Below are positions 8,378 through 25,854 of a DNA stretch of 46,488 nucleotides, in pieces. A model generated the notes under the pieces. It did no database searches, was not told where the DNA came from, and saw only the letters and a list, made by a program, of their open reading frames with translations. Where the stretch lies: positions 1 through 46,488 of the IMG/VR virus record IMGVR_UViG_3300031651_000003; one strand, written 5' to 3'. Made by a program: the position numbers and the translations under genes. How positions within the stretch are numbered: the first letter of the stretch is position 1; every line of letters begins with the position of its first letter. This stretch comes from a virus.

Positions 8378-8464
8378 TCTGCCGCTTATCATGTCTGCCG
8401 TTTACCGCATCCCGCCGCCCAAATGGGGTTCAGGAGGTCTGGGGTTCAAATCCCCACGCCCCGA
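8378..8464 (+). other. attP: Phage attachment site attP: tRNA-Pro(GGG) 3' half plus arm-type repeats
   Basis: Bases 8424-8464 read as the 3' half of a tRNA. An anticodon loop with T33 and anticodon GGG is followed by stem TCAGG, variable AGGTC, T-arm TGGGG-TTCAAAT-CCCCA, acceptor strand CGCCCCG and discriminator A. CCA is not encoded. No 5' half is present, so this is not a working tRNA but the identity segment that rebuilds a host tRNA-Pro after integration. Just upstream, TCTGCCGCTTA (8378-8388) and TCTGCCGTTTA (8394-8404) repeat with a 16-bp period and could be integrase arm sites. The integrase gene follows 372 bases downstream. Confidence 0.85.
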
Positions 8465-8547
8465 CTTTGCTACTTGGCCGCACCGCCTATCACGACCGCT
8501 CTACGCATCCGCACAGCACATCGCCCCAACTGAAAGGCTGTCTGGGC

Positions 8548-8596: not shown

Positions 8597-8839
8597 ATGA
8601 CAACGAAGGAGATACTGAAAGTCCTAGAAGACGCATACGAGAACTGTTGTGACATCTATTGGAAAGAACTGGAACCTATTATCGTCGAACTACGGCGCAG
8701 GGAGCAAAGCCCGGTCGCCCAACGCCTAGATGCTATGATAGGGGAGGCCTTAAAGCACTTCACCAGCGAAGACGATTTGGGACGAACCCTCAACGTGCTA
8801 CTGGACAACCTCCACCAACTTCGAGACGAACTGCCATGA
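8597..8839 (+). CDS. Small acidic helical protein upstream of integrase
   Basis: The product has 80 residues, from ATG 8597 with AAAGGA upstream. It is nearly all helix with many acidic residues (MTTKEILKVLEDAYENCC, LNVLLDNLHQLRDEL). No DNA-binding motif is evident. The stop overlaps the integrase ATG (ATGA), so the two are co-translated. A recombination-directionality or integrase-control role is possible but unproven. Confidence 0.65.
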   Translation: MTTKEILKVLEDAYENCCDIYWKELEPIIVELRRREQSPVAQRLDAMIGEALKHFTSEDDLGRTLNVLLDNLHQLRDELP

Positions 8840-9738
8840 AACCAATTCCTTGCCGCCTTGACACCTACCTACCCGCCTTCGCCCTCATGCTTGAGACGGA
8901 GGTCGCCCCGCGCACGGTCGAAGGCTACACGCAAAGCCTTGAGGGGTTTCTTCGCTACGCACAACGGGACGGCCTACCTACCGACCCGCAAGCGCTGACC
9001 GCCGACCACATCCGCCACTTCCTGCACGACCTCGCCGCCGCCGGCCGCAGTGCCAATACGCTTCGGCAATACCACGCCAGCCTCCGACGGTTCTTCAAGT
9101 GGCTCGCGGCTGAGGGCGACATCGTTGATAACCCGATGGATCGTATTCATATGCCGCGTCCGCCAGAGAAGGTCATTGACCCGTTTACGTCTGACGAACT
9201 CCAACGCCTCAACACCGCTGCCAAGATGCAGGGTCGCCGCATACTGGCCCTACGTGATTACGCCTTGCTCCTGATCCTCGAAGACACTGGCGCCCGTGCC
9301 AGCGAGATCACAACGCTCACACTTGACCACATCGACTGGCGACAGCGGACTTTCCGATTGATTGGAAAGGGTAACAGGGAAGGGCTAGTGGCAGCGTCGG
9401 GCAAGACGATGCGAGCGGTCGCCGCTTACCTCAAAGCGCGTCGCGTCGTCAATGACAGAGCATTCGTCACCGACCGAGGCCAAGCCATGAACCGTAACTC
9501 GCTCCTCCAAGTACTCCGGCGTATCGGCTTGCGGGCTGGCGTTGAGAACGTTCACACACACAGGTTTCGACATACCTACGGAGATATGTTCCTTGAGGCC
9601 GGCGGTCAGGAGGGAGATTTGCAAGCCGCTTTCCGCCACTCGACAAGCGCCATGACCAGGCGCTATACTCGTGCAAGGCAGACGGGCCGAGCACTGGAAG
9701 CGATGCGGCGCCTGAGCCCAGTGGAGAGGTTAAGATGA
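8836..9738 (+). CDS. int: Tyrosine recombinase (integrase)
   Basis: The product has 300 residues. ATG 8836 overlaps the previous stop; the frame extends upstream but inside that gene. An N-terminal SAM-like core-binding domain (about 5-95) precedes the catalytic domain. The active-site set is complete: R154 (TGARASE), K178 (GKGNRE), H242-x-x-R245 (HRFRH), H268 (RHST) and Y277 (RRYTRA), with the standard nine residues between H268 and Y277. It catalyses integration between attP at 8424-8464 and the host tRNA-Pro gene. An 18-bp motif copy overlaps the RLIGKG codons. Confidence 0.95.
   Translation: MKPIPCRLDTYLPAFALMLETEVAPRTVEGYTQSLEGFLRYAQRDGLPTDPQALTADHIRHFLHDLAAAGRSANTLRQYHASLRRFFKWLAAEGDIVDNPMDRIHMPRPPEKVIDPFTSDELQRLNTAAKMQGRRILALRDYALLLILEDTGARASEITTLTLDHIDWRQRTFRLIGKGNREGLVAASGKTMRAVAAYLKARRVVNDRAFVTDRGQAMNRNSLLQVLRRIGLRAGVENVHTHRFRHTYGDMFLEAGGQEGDLQAAFRHSTSAMTRRYTRARQTGRALEAMRRLSPVERLR
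9352..9369 (+). repeat. Dispersed 18-bp motif, copy 3
   Basis: TTCCGATTGATTGGAAAG, inside int where it encodes part of the conserved FRLIGKG segment. It may be coincidental, because that protein motif is conserved in the family. Confidence 0.45.
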
Positions 9739-18011: not shown

Positions 18012-18326
18012 TCAATCCTCGCAAAAAATAATCACGATTTGTCGCGCCGTTCTTGCCGCGTCCTTGCCGTTGTGAGGTAGGCGGATAGCAGGCGAGAGCT
18101 GGCCCCACAGTTTCTCGGCGCGTTCGGCTCCCAGTTCGTCCCAGAAAGCACCGATAATCCCGCCAGCTAGCATGTGGCTCGGCAAGCCGTGTGTTGCGGC
18201 TCTTACCGTCTCGGCAGCTACGGCCGCGAGTGCCTCTTGGTGGGCTTCCCAGCCCTTCGGGTCGAAGATTTGCCAGCCTTGCCGTTCAAGCGTGGCCGCA
18301 CAGTTATGACGAAATGGGTTTCTCAT
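18012..18326 (-). CDS. Hypothetical protein
   Basis: The product has 104 residues starting MRNPFRHNCAATL at 18326, overlapping the upstream stop (ATGA). It is mostly helical (GWEAHQEALAAVAAETVRAA, ELGAERAEKLWGQL). No catalytic motif is visible. It is the last gene before the internal promoter. Confidence 0.55.
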   Translation of the reverse strand: MRNPFRHNCAATLERQGWQIFDPKGWEAHQEALAAVAAETVRAATHGLPSHMLAGGIIGAFWDELGAERAEKLWGQLSPAIRLPHNGKDAARTARQIVIIFCED

Positions 18327-19114
18327 GCTTGTGCCTCCTCTAGCGTTCCTTGCCATAAAACGTTTCCGTCGGGACCGCCGTGAAGTCGCCAGGTTTTACC
18401 AGCGAGCGAAGGAATGAGGCCCATGTGCCAGAGATCAACGGCAGCCCTGAACGGATAGTCGTTGGTTGTTCCATTCGCCCATTTCCAGTTCTTGATGCCA
18501 GGGAAGAGTGAGCCAAAGTAAGCCCCCACGCTATCCCACACGCTGGGCCCCACGCTATCCCACACGCTATCCCACACGCTGGGCCCCACGCTATCCCACA
18601 CGCTATCCCACACGCTGGCCCACACGCTATCCCACACTCTATCCCACACGCTGGCCCCCACGCTGGCCCACACTCTATCCCACACGCTATCCCTCACGCT
18701 GGCCCCCACGCTATCCCTCACGCTGGCCCACTCCTTTAGCAGGCGTATGTGCCGTTGGGTAATCTTCTTGGGTGGCTTAATGTGGAACGGGTGAACGGGC
18801 TTAATGGCCTCGCTGTAGTTCCAGCCAAACAGCCTATCCAGGTGGCTCACCTCTTCCAAGACCCTCAATTCGTGGAAGCCAAACTTTTTACCGTCGCCTG
18901 TTACTGGCTCGCCCTCAACGACGAAAGCGCGGCAAGGAATGGAGGCACCAACGAAAGAGTCGTTTGGGTTAGGGCAGGCGTGGAGGACGCCCGGGGCGCA
19001 GAGGTTGTGGCGGCGGCGCTTCTTGGCGATCTTCACCGTCTTGCCTACAGCCCATTTGGTTGTGTGATCGTAGAAACTGCGGCCTTGTAGGTCGGTCAAC
19101 TTGTATGCCTTCAT
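18323..19114 (-). CDS. Protein with WDSV/GASV-type tandem repeats
   Basis: The product has 263 residues starting MKAYKLTDLQG at 19114, behind GAGGCG; the open frame further upstream has no start signal. The N-terminal 125 residues form a DUF-like domain (LTDLQGRSFYDHTTKWAVGK, CPNPNDSFVGASIPCRAFVV) found in phage proteins that carry such repeats. Residues about 127-198 are tetrapeptide repeats of WDSV, WASV, RDSV, GASV and GPSV, coded by a near-identical 12-base DNA repeat. They may form a coil like pentapeptide-repeat helices. A C-terminal domain follows. The function is unknown; the length is likely to vary by slippage. Confidence 0.7.
   Translation of the reverse strand: MKAYKLTDLQGRSFYDHTTKWAVGKTVKIAKKRRRHNLCAPGVLHACPNPNDSFVGASIPCRAFVVEGEPVTGDGKKFGFHELRVLEEVSHLDRLFGWNYSEAIKPVHPFHIKPPKKITQRHIRLLKEWASVRDSVGASVRDSVWDRVWASVGASVWDRVWDSVWASVWDSVWDSVGPSVWDSVWDSVGPSVWDSVGAYFGSLFPGIKNWKWANGTTNDYPFRAAVDLWHMGLIPSLAGKTWRLHGGPDGNVLWQGTLEEAQA
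18520..18735 (-). repeat. 12-bp minisatellite inside a coding region
   Basis: About 18 near-identical 12-base units occur; on the + strand they read as variants of CACGCTATCCCA and CACGCTGGCCCA. Unit length is a multiple of three, so gain or loss keeps the frame. Confidence 0.85.
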
Positions 19115-19151
19115 CTTATCGCCTCCTCGTTTGATACCCAATTCCCTCCTC

Positions 19152-19514
19152 TTATTCAAGGCCCTTCTCATCTGGCCCGGGTTCCAAGAACTTCCCAGAC
19201 AATCCCCCTTGGCCCACGACGCCCATCGGCGTATGGAACGTGGGCTCAAAGAGCCGCGTCGCCCCACAATGTCGGCAGCGGCCCTCGTTGCAGTTATCGA
19301 GAGAGCCTAGTCTGCCGAGCAGCCAGTGATGAGCACCAGTGGGCGATTGTTTACAGAGGCCGTTGCTCATCGCACGCACCAGCCTAACCGGACGATGGCG
19401 GGTCACCGGCCGCTTGGCCCCTGGCCGGTGCATGAAACAGTACCCATCGGGTTCTGCGGGCTTATGGCAGCGAGCACCGCTATTCGTTATCGCTTTGCAT
19501 GTTATCGAGGGCAC
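19152..19514 (-). CDS. Double zinc-finger protein
   Basis: The product has 120 residues from GTG 19514. The N-terminal finger has C6, C16, C26 and H29 (CKAITNSGARCHKPAEPDGYC, then FMH) of the kind found in small DUF5763-like proteins. A second Cys/His group follows after an Arg-rich linker: CKQSPTGAHHW and CRHCGATRLF. An internal ATG before the second finger could give a shorter form. It probably binds nucleic acid. Confidence 0.65.
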   Translation of the reverse strand: MPSITCKAITNSGARCHKPAEPDGYCFMHRPGAKRPVTRHRPVRLVRAMSNGLCKQSPTGAHHWLLGRLGSLDNCNEGRCRHCGATRLFEPTFHTPMGVVGQGGLSGKFLEPGPDEKGLE

Positions 19515-21415: not shown

Positions 21416-21444
21416 TTGACATTCGGGGGCGCAAGGGTTATAAT
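21416..21444 (+). promoter_or_regulatory. Perfect consensus promoter for the HTH gene
   Basis: TTGACA (21416-21421), 17-bp spacer, TATAAT (21439-21444). Transcription would begin about 21450-21452, only two to four bases before ATG 21454, so the message is nearly leaderless. The GGGAG at 21445-21449 would then be outside or at the edge of the transcript. Confidence 0.85.
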
Positions 21445-22014: not shown

Positions 22015-22042
22015 ATCATACCACATCCCTGCCTAGCGGCAA
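22015..22042 (-). promoter_or_regulatory. Leftward promoter (TTGCCG, 16 bp, TATGAT)
   Basis: Read leftward: TTGCCG (22037-22042), 16-bp spacer, TATGAT (22015-22020). It sits directly upstream of the membrane-anchored Cys-rich gene and fixes the start of that gene to GTG 21995. Confidence 0.55.
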
Positions 22043-22656: not shown

Positions 22657-22685
22657 TTGACAAAGGGCATACACGGGTGTATAAT
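22657..22685 (+). promoter_or_regulatory. Perfect consensus sigma70 promoter
   Basis: TTGACA (22657-22662), 17-bp spacer, TATAAT (22680-22685). Transcription should start near 22692. It is followed by a structured non-coding stretch, not by a gene, and it is the strongest rightward promoter before the late genes. Confidence 0.9.
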
Positions 22686-22691
22686 AGAACA

Positions 22692-22918
22692 AAGGTTCGT
22701 GACCAGGGGGTAGAGGCGCGCGGGAATCCTCCGCTGGGCGGGCCTTCGGGAGTGCTGCTAACAGCGCCTAGGCGCGGCGGCCAGGTAGGGGTGGGAGGAA
22801 TAGTCTCCCCGTCTTCGTCGAGGCGACGGCGGGCTGGCGAGCGAGGGGCTGGCTCTGCGGCTCGAAGCCTCGCTCGCTGAATAAGGCGATGTGGTCGCAG
22901 AGCCGCACCGCCTTTATG
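22692..22918 (+). ncRNA. Candidate structured non-coding RNA with kissing hairpins
   Basis: About 227 nt between a perfect promoter and a terminator-like hairpin, with no supported protein frame. Helices seen by eye: AGGCGC (22714-22719) with GCGCCT (22764-22769), enclosing GCGG/CCGC (22720-22734) and a UUCG tetraloop (22745-22748); GGGAG/CTCCC (22793-22809); CGTCG/CGACG (22816-22828); and a perfect 10-bp stem GCGAGCGAGG (22837-22846) / CCTCGCTCGC (22868-22877). The final hairpin AAGGCG-AT-GTG / CAC-CGCCTT (22883-22914) ends in TTTAT. The loop bases GGCTCTGCG (22851-22859) and CGCAGAGCC (22896-22904) of the last two hairpins are fully complementary. No known family recognised. Confidence 0.65.
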
Positions 22919-22922
22919 AACG

Positions 22923-23156
22923 ATGAATGGTTGTCCACGTTGTGGTGGCTCTGTGGCGGCAGATGAGGACTTGTTTTGTATCTCCTGCGGGGCGCGGCTT
23001 GAATTGGTCTGTGGCGAGATCAGGGAGTTTCGTCGGCCTACGATAGAGCCAGACGAGGACATCGTGGGTGAGGTTGTGGCGGCGGCGCTTGAGGGCGGCA
23101 CATATAAGAGAGCCCGGACGCTGCTGAGGAAGTGGCGCGAGAACGGGGGAGAGTAG
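22923..23156 (+). CDS. Zinc-ribbon protein
   Basis: The product has 77 residues from ATG 22923. MNGCPRCGGSVAADEDLFC and ISCGARLEL give two CxxCG knuckles of a classical zinc ribbon, followed by an acidic segment and a basic C-terminal helix (TYKRARTLLRKWRENGG). No ribosome site is evident; the start lies a few bases after the terminator-like hairpin of the upstream RNA. That hairpin may therefore control this gene. Confidence 0.7.
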   Translation: MNGCPRCGGSVAADEDLFCISCGARLELVCGEIREFRRPTIEPDEDIVGEVVAAALEGGTYKRARTLLRKWRENGGE

Positions 23157-23205
23157 GAACGCCCCAGCCGCCTTCGGGCAATGCCCGGGGATGGGTGCAG
23201 GGAAA

Positions 23206-23234
23206 CGCGGGTGCAACTCCCGCCTCCTCCACCA
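23206..23234 (+). other. tmRNA/tRNA-like 3' end (T-arm, acceptor strand, CCA)
   Basis: A T-arm GCGGG-TGCAACT-CCCGC (23207-23223) is followed by acceptor strand CTCCTCC, discriminator A and an encoded CCA (23232-23234). The T-arm differs from that of bacterial tmRNA (TTCAACT loop) at one base and the run into CTCCACCA matches tmRNA ends. No complete D-arm, anticodon arm or tmRNA 5' domain pairs with it; GGGGGAG at 23145 could pair with the acceptor but lies in the preceding gene. It may be a degenerate tRNA, a captured host 3' end, or a tRNA-like processing signal. Confidence 0.5.
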
Positions 23235-23316: not shown

Positions 23317-23391
23317 CGCAGGATAGAGAAGCGGTATCTCACCTGGCTCATAACTAGGAGATCGCGGGTTCGAGTCCCGCTCCTGCTACCA
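23317..23391 (+). tRNA. tRNA with CAT anticodon (Met or Ile2)
   Basis: A complete cloverleaf: acceptor CGCAGGA/TCCTGCT with the first pair mismatched (C1-T72), TA, D-arm GAGA-AGCGGTA-TCTC, anticodon arm CCTGG-CTCATAA-CTAGG, variable AGATC, T-arm GCGGG-TTCGAGT-CCCGC, discriminator A and encoded CCA. It lacks the three G-C pairs at the anticodon stem base of initiator tRNA, although the unpaired first position recalls an initiator. Elongator Met or lysidine-type Ile are the likely identities. Confidence 0.9.
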
Positions 23392-24143: not shown

Positions 24144-24398
24144 ATGCCCAAGCGCAAGGGCAGTGGGGCCGTCATGCGCGATATGTTCGAGATCGCGCAG
24201 AGATACGGCCCGGAGAGCATGGAGACGCTGGGCAAGGCGGCGGCAGACGGCGACGTGGATGCGGCCAAGGCCCTACAGCGGTTCTTCACGGACTTTATGA
24301 AGCTGATGGGTGAGGGCGAGGCATCGGACGTGCTCAAATTGATACAAGGTATTAGGAGTGGAAAGCGACCTCGCGGTAGGCCAAGGAATACCCGTTGA
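24144..24398 (+). CDS. Putative small terminase subunit or TerL partner
   Basis: The product has 84 residues. It is all helical with AAADGDVDAAKALQRFFTDF and basic ends (MPKRKGSG, SGKRPRGRPRNTR). Position directly before the large terminase and 41 bases of overlap with it suggest a small terminase, although it is shorter than usual and no HTH is certain. DNA-binding tails of the AT-hook type (RPRGRPR) are visible. Confidence 0.45.
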   Translation: MPKRKGSGAVMRDMFEIAQRYGPESMETLGKAAADGDVDAAKALQRFFTDFMKLMGEGEASDVLKLIQGIRSGKRPRGRPRNTR

Positions 24399-25854
24399 GG
24401 AGTGGCGGGCAGGTATCGGCCTGACCGCGCCAATATGGGAAGAGAAGCTCGCTCTGTGGGAGCGGGTGACAATTCCCTCAGCCGAGACAGCTATCACGAG
24501 GGAAACGGGTGGGTTCACGCCGAACTTCCTCATTGAGTTCTGCCTGAAACACCCGGCCGTCGCCAAGTTACTGTCGGGCGGACCGCGTAGCGGCAAGTCG
24601 CTCGGCATCGGGATGGACTTGGCGGCGTGGGCTATCCACTCGGAGCTGATATGGCTAGTGGCGGACACATACGCCGGGACTAGACGTGAGTTCCGTTACT
24701 TGGCTGATGCGCTGGACTCACTACGACTCGTAAGGCCGAGCACCATTTCGTTTCCGCGCAAGAAGGATGAGCCGTGCTCGATGCAGACGAAGTGGGGTTG
24801 CCAGATAGAAACCCTATCGCTGGCGGACGCGCGGCGCATCGCGGCCTATGGCCCGGACGTGATCGCGGTCTGTGAACCGGGGCTCCTTACCAAAGACATA
24901 GTGTGGCGTTTCCGGGAGCGATTGTCCGGCCGGCGGGGCTACCTCCTGATGGCGGGGAGTTTCGAGGAAGACATCGGCTGGATGGCTAAGGTCTGGGACG
25001 AATGGAAGGCTTGGCCGAACGCTGAGGGAAAGTCGTTCATCTGCCCGTCGTGGATGAACCGCTACCTATACCCAGGTGGCAAGAGGGACCCGGCGATCCA
25101 GGCAATGCGGCGGAACATGACCCGCCACGACTTTCTGCTAAGGGTGGCAGGGGTTCCGACGATGCCGCCGGAGGTCATCTTCTCAGAGACGTTTCAGCCT
25201 GACAGACGACGCGAGGACTCACAGATACGGCAAGCGGACAGGAAACGCATCTTGGAGGACCGCGACCTTCTGGTGGAGATAGCGATAGACCCGGGCTACT
25301 CAAGCGGGGTATACGCGGTGCACGCGATAGCTTGGGATGGTGAGCAGGGATGGGTATTCGACGAGATTCGCAAGGAAGGCGCTCTCCACTCCGAGATGAT
25401 CGGCTTGGCGATGTCACGCTGGTGGTGGCACCGGGTATCAGGTGGAACGCTCGATCCGTTTGCGGGCACGTCGCACATCTTCGGCTCGTCAAGCCCACAG
25501 GAGGTGTGGGCAAGGCCGCCGTCTAGCGTTCGGTTGCGGTGCGATTATCGCGTAGGCATCGAGGATGGTATAGAACGGCACAAGTGGTTTCTACGCGATC
25601 CGATCACGGGTCAAGTTCGGCTATGGACAGACCCGTGCAACGAAGGACTTATTCAAGAATACCAATCGTGGCGCCGAGTGCGGGTGCAAGAGGGTGTGGA
25701 CAAGACAGCACAGCCATTGAAACGCGGCTGCGATAGCATCAAGGCCCTGACAGGCTGGCTGGTGGATTGCTACATGCGACGGATGCGACCTAGACAGGAC
25801 TATGGGATAGAGGCCATTGGGCCTACGCGCACACATGCGCCGAGATGGAGGTAG
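24358..25854 (+). CDS. terL: Terminase large subunit
   Basis: The product has 498 residues from GTG 24358, overlapping the previous gene. The ATPase domain has Walker A GGPRSGKS (74-81) and Walker B-like VIAVCE (168-173). The C-terminal nuclease domain starts with IAIDPGYSS, D311 being the first metal ligand. It translocates DNA into the procapsid and cuts it. The Walker B Cys before Glu is less common. The start is not certain, because AGGA is directly adjacent; a downstream start is possible. Confidence 0.85.
   Translation: MESDLAVGQGIPVEEWRAGIGLTAPIWEEKLALWERVTIPSAETAITRETGGFTPNFLIEFCLKHPAVAKLLSGGPRSGKSLGIGMDLAAWAIHSELIWLVADTYAGTRREFRYLADALDSLRLVRPSTISFPRKKDEPCSMQTKWGCQIETLSLADARRIAAYGPDVIAVCEPGLLTKDIVWRFRERLSGRRGYLLMAGSFEEDIGWMAKVWDEWKAWPNAEGKSFICPSWMNRYLYPGGKRDPAIQAMRRNMTRHDFLLRVAGVPTMPPEVIFSETFQPDRRREDSQIRQADRKRILEDRDLLVEIAIDPGYSSGVYAVHAIAWDGEQGWVFDEIRKEGALHSEMIGLAMSRWWWHRVSGGTLDPFAGTSHIFGSSSPQEVWARPPSSVRLRCDYRVGIEDGIERHKWFLRDPITGQVRLWTDPCNEGLIQEYQSWRRVRVQEGVDKTAQPLKRGCDSIKALTGWLVDCYMRRMRPRQDYGIEAIGPTRTHAPRWR

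Follow-up and report, generated by a model that had tools for sequence, protein, structure and literature searches.

What does the non-coding stretch between a perfect promoter and the first gene of the rightward block of this virus do? The first-pass annotation had seen in it a candidate for a new structured RNA. By the window we mean the whole stretch of DNA analysed, 46,488 nt long. Its leftward gene block starts at 22019; terminase, portal and capsid belong to the late block, which is rightward. The start of the latter is laid out as follows.

22657..22685, + strand: consensus sigma-70 type promoter, TTGACA-17-TATAAT, 12/12 match
22669..22682, no strand assigned: 6-bp inverted repeat ATACAC-GG-GTGTAT, reaching from the promoter spacer into the -10 hexamer (direct reading)
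22692..22922, + strand: non-coding leader, its start placed at about 22692 from the promoter
22923..23156, + strand: first gene of the operon, a zinc-ribbon protein of 77 aa (Pfam Zn_ribbon_3, E 2.6e-5, under its cut-off; 57% identical in the relative L092 described below)

The promoter is present exactly as annotated; the window has three 12/12 sites whose spacing is 16-18 nt, this one included. The inverted repeat in its spacer is a possible operator; no second copy with up to 3 mismatches occurs in the window. A further perfect consensus promoter (21416-21444, + strand) lies directly 5′ of a short gene of helix-turn-helix (excisionase/MerR-like) type, whose product might regulate the promoter at 22657. 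Between 22020 and 22640, upstream of the latter, are about 620 nt with no convincing gene, which is large for a phage. This gap contains a 20-nt imperfect inverted repeat (22341-22360/22434-22453) and could be the site of an origin or of regulatory sequences. Elsewhere in the window, another perfect promoter (TTGACA-16-TATAAT, 10301-10273, minus strand) points into about 500 nt, to about 9740, that hold no clear gene on the minus strand and begin GTGCGGCCGGCCGCAC; these could make another non-coding RNA. The sequence TCTGGGGTTCAAATCCCCACGCCCCGA at 8430-8465 is probably the phage attachment site, because it resembles a tRNA 3′ end (tRNA-Pro type) and adjoins the integrase gene (8659-9738). We also note a minus-strand protein (18323-19267) that matches no Pfam family and contains WDSVWASV-type repeats in a row.

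No credible gene lies between about 22692 and the ATG at 22923. The overlapping ORFs there are mechanical and tblastx against L092 returned nothing for the leader, so that the annotated absence of a supportable protein frame holds. The Rfam search that the first-pass annotation had suggested, run on 22692-22922 with all families, gave no match at gathering score; at a relaxed threshold only RNaseP_arch appeared (9.2 bits, E 3.4). An Rfam scan of L092 gave no match for its leader either. Folding was compared with shuffles of the same dinucleotide content. The region 22686-22925 (240 nt) has a minimum free energy of -110.6 kcal/mol against a shuffle mean of -107.8 (z -0.61), and the first 144 nt (22692-22835) give z +1.04, with 177 of 200 shuffles folding at least as well. 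The description of the leader as having at least six helices is thus not borne out; only the last two hairpins beat chance. A C(UUCG)G tetraloop does occur at 22744-22749, as had been reported, but it is closed by a short clamp only and sits outside any structure that beats the shuffles.

The folding signal is limited to the 3′ end of the leader, where the last 87 nt (22836-22922) reach z -3.64 and none of 200 shuffles is as stable. It consists of two hairpins, 4 nt apart.

22836..22878, + strand: hairpin 1, with an 11-bp outer stem (folding)
22851..22859, + strand: loop-1 segment GGCTCTGCG, complementary to 22896-22904
22883..22914, + strand: hairpin 2, followed by TTTAT and ending 8 nt before the ATG (folding)
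22896..22904, + strand: loop-2 segment CGCAGAGCC, complementary to 22851-22859

The perfect 10-bp stem of the first-pass annotation is found in hairpin 1 (22837-22846/22868-22877), and the nine-base complementarity that it had proposed between the two loops is a perfect match. A stem of at least 10 bp arises in 28 of 2000 dinucleotide shuffles of the leader and a loop-loop match of at least 9 in 2 of 2000; among 59 neighbouring hairpin pairs in the whole window the loops match over at most 6 bp, with this pair (9) the sole exception. The loop-loop match was picked after the sequence had been read, which makes the shuffle and window figures flatter it. Despite this post hoc choice, the hairpin pair at 22836-22914 stands out as a sequence feature. 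TTTAT follows hairpin 2 at 22913-22917, and the next gene does begin a few bases on; the T tract is weak and the hairpin is absent from the listing of the terminator scan. The loop-1 sequence recurs as a 12-nt repeat within the start of the gene (22946-22957), which offers an alternative partner for hairpin 2, although 12-nt repeats of this kind are not rare in this composition.

Relatives were sought by scanning for protein patterns of the terminase, zinc-ribbon, capsid and portal. These protein-guided scans gave a single close relative, L092 (IMGVR_UViG_3300035688_000544, 6262 bp), whose terminase and portal are about 75% identical to those of the window. Gene order is the same in both: zinc-ribbon gene, tRNA-like element, tRNA-Met, small genes, terminase and portal. 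In the window, the elements downstream of the first gene are placed as follows.

23145..23234, + strand: tRNA-like element resembling the tRNA-like domain of tmRNA without the mRNA part (Rfam, folding and comparison with L092)
23317..23391, + strand: tRNA-Met (CAT) (tRNA/Rfam scan)
24358..25854, + strand: large terminase (PHROG 2, E 4.3e-6)

Because the L092 contig opens 124 nt upstream of the zinc-ribbon ATG, comparison is limited to the end of the leader, and the contig does not reach the promoter. These 124 nt fold strongly (z -2.82; hairpin 16-64, z -5.5), and 8-9 nt separate the last hairpin from the ATG, a distance like that in the window. No sequence similarity was detected between the two leaders, the longest common word being CAGGTAGGG (E 0.12); the tRNA-like elements are 78% and the tRNA-Met genes 92% identical. 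The 9-bp loop-loop contact is not kept in L092. A 6-bp pseudoknot of CCUCGC with the last loop is possible there, and a 6-base match in such a space is unremarkable. No T tract follows the last hairpin of L092, so a terminator would at best be specific to the window, and the terminator or attenuator role suggested by the first-pass annotation is not conserved. Its proposal of a new, discrete family of structured RNA also lacks support here: the one, truncated homologue shares position and strong folding, not sequence or loop contact. Other relatives have about 22-35% of the terminase in common, and both the zinc-ribbon gene and the tRNA-like element are missing from them. Several distant relatives have a long divergent gap ahead of the rightward block, and leader folding among them is mixed. 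In a DNA comparison with 50,697 phages, all hits among the matches listed were to the tRNA; with Gemmatimonadota as the host group, no additional match was found among 298 genomes.

As the simplest reading we propose, with a probability of about one half, that 22692-22922 serves the rightward (late) operon as a fast-evolving, cis-acting 5′ untranslated leader. Host RNA polymerase would initiate at the consensus promoter, which a protein bound to the spacer palindrome might switch, and the RNA would end in two adjacent hairpins with loops able to pair. The hairpins would act in cis, by slowing or partly terminating polymerase, by gating ribosome access, or by both; the target in the second case would be the zinc-ribbon start 8 nt downstream. 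What the leader controls may be polymerase, ribosome entry or RNA stability. The proposal is based on the 12/12 promoter and the folding of the last 87 nt, on a loop match that is unique in the window and rare in shuffles, and on the retention in L092 of gene order and of a strongly folded stretch before the same gene. It also draws on the zinc-ribbon gene having no Shine-Dalgarno sequence, unlike most late genes, and on the long divergent gap that recurs before the rightward block in several distant relatives. Two phages of one lineage place strong hairpins directly before the Shine-Dalgarno-less start of the first rightward gene; in the window a strong promoter precedes them. We counted against the proposal that L092 conserves neither the sequence nor the 9-bp contact, that folding is mixed in the distant relatives, that the 5′ part is missing from L092 and that the choice of the loop match was post hoc. 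For a structured leader downstream of the strong promoter there is partial support, confined to the 3′ end.

The same layout would suit late control of the lambda kind, with a late promoter, a short 6S-like RNA, a terminator made of hairpin 2 and TTTAT, and a Q-like protein in the spacer that gives read-through into the late genes. The site ahead of the late block, the leader of about 225 nt and the T-rich end after hairpin 2 all agree with this, as does the palindrome between -35 and -10, where Q of lambdoid phages binds (PMC6606751). However, the T tract is weak, was missed by the terminator scan and has no counterpart in L092, and no Q family was found in the scanned genes near the promoter (part of the genes of the window); we consider this explanation unlikely, if worth keeping in view. 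Release at hairpin 2 of a free regulatory RNA that acts in trans would likewise fit the promoter, the length and the terminator-like end. We find it distinctly improbable, given a sequence that is not conserved in L092, the lack of a T tract there and the absence of an identified target. Tandem hairpins of about 80 nt behind a phage promoter also recall HK022 put, a protein-free antitermination RNA whose two hairpins bind polymerase, which then passes later terminators. The put element is two tandem stem-loops of about 70-80 nt in a phage operon leader (PMC9378689); the hairpins at 22836-22914 have this layout. Descriptions of put mention neither a 4-nt gap nor complementary loops nor a position next to a start codon, and an RNA of this type seems very doubtful here.

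It is also conceivable, though on the whole improbable, that the hairpins are chance or DNA-level structure in GC-rich intergenic DNA with no function as RNA. The region as a whole folds no better than shuffles, the perfect stems and the loop match exist equally on the opposite strand, and the leader sequence is not conserved; against this stand the local z of -3.64 and the strong folding of L092 at the corresponding place. The head or packaging RNA raised by the first-pass annotation, which would multimerise through complementary loops as in phi29, has in its favour the two loops and a terminase gene 1.4 kb downstream. We regard it as extremely unlikely, since the motor gene is an ordinary PHROG 2 large terminase, no Rfam model matches, that of the known packaging RNA included, and the complementary loops are not kept in L092. 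The leader feature is, in our assessment, real but modest; the present data do not support many helices, a new family or a packaging role.

The tRNA-like element at 23145-23234, which in the window overlaps the last part of the zinc-ribbon gene, is the better-supported RNA of the region. Its 7-bp acceptor (GGGGGAG/CUCCUCC) carries the alanine signal G3:U70, A73 and an encoded CCA; there is a T arm with the loop UGCAACU and a single P2-like arm, and neither an anticodon arm nor a tag frame, which is the layout of a tmRNA made of the tRNA-like domain only. ARAGORN did not call it. The Rfam tmRNA model gives 32.8 bits, below its cut-off of 47, but this full-length model penalises the absent mRNA part. 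The L092 copy (539-630) is hit only by the permuted-tmRNA model (17.1 bits) and folds into the same three-way shape (z -2.12). The P2-like arms of the two differ by two compensating changes and a one-sided change, a weak covariation that comes from two sequences only and is equalled in 116 of 500 shuffles. When about 160 more distant loci were searched with a two-sequence model, none yielded a comparable copy; the model's next-ranking matches fall on permuted tmRNAs of marine phage contigs, at their acceptor ends, and DNA patterns for the element matched only such marine genes and L092. Four marine virus contigs (L002, L004, L005, L006) appear to hold permuted tmRNA genes (for example at about 5031-5056 of L004, minus strand), with the acceptor piece first and then a GGGGGAG piece and the tag ANNDYLLAA or a variant. 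They are flanked by a small membrane-protein gene on one side and an iron-sulphur-type gene on the other, and ARAGORN reported none of them. A rival reading of the window's element is a degenerate tRNA-Ala, its 3′ half resembling tRNA-Ala of Vibrio phages.

The element at 23145-23234 looks like a tmRNA of which only the tRNA-like domain is left. Its described precedent is the tmRNA of mycobacteriophage DS6A, which consists of hardly more than this domain; a molecule similar to the DS6A one strongly inhibits tmRNA in E. coli, and titration of SmpB may be the cause (PMC4131195, PMC11915505). By description, the two share a tmRNA-type acceptor and T arm, the lack of an mRNA-like part and a phage origin; they differ in that ours belongs to an unrelated lineage, has its own P2-like arm of about 40 nt and scores below the Rfam cut-off. 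By analogy, it is a possible inhibitor of host tmRNA. The cited literature names one phage, DS6A, as a source of the tRNA-like-domain-only tmRNA (PMC4131195, PMC11915505), and a conserved copy in a second lineage would make the decoy idea testable; in this respect the element matters more than the leader. That the hairpins and their pairing loops form a protein-free late-operon switch, its form kept and its sequence fast-evolving, with a tmRNA decoy from 23145-23234 against host ribosome rescue as the operon's second product, is a long shot.

If the leader works as proposed, it would add to the control leaders known from phage late operons, in a lineage without a studied member. The lambda late promoter PR' gives a 6S leader that ends at the terminator tR'. 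With PR'/6S/tR'/Q the window shares a promoter, a leader of about 200 nt, a hairpin before the late genes and a possible protein site in the spacer; it differs in its weak T tract, absent in the relative, and in that no Q was found in the scanned genes. We know of no loop-loop complement in the lambda PR'/tR' leader. From HK022 put it differs in having its hairpins directly before a start codon and its loops complementary. By analogy, these two systems would be the nearest working models, with membership in either not established.
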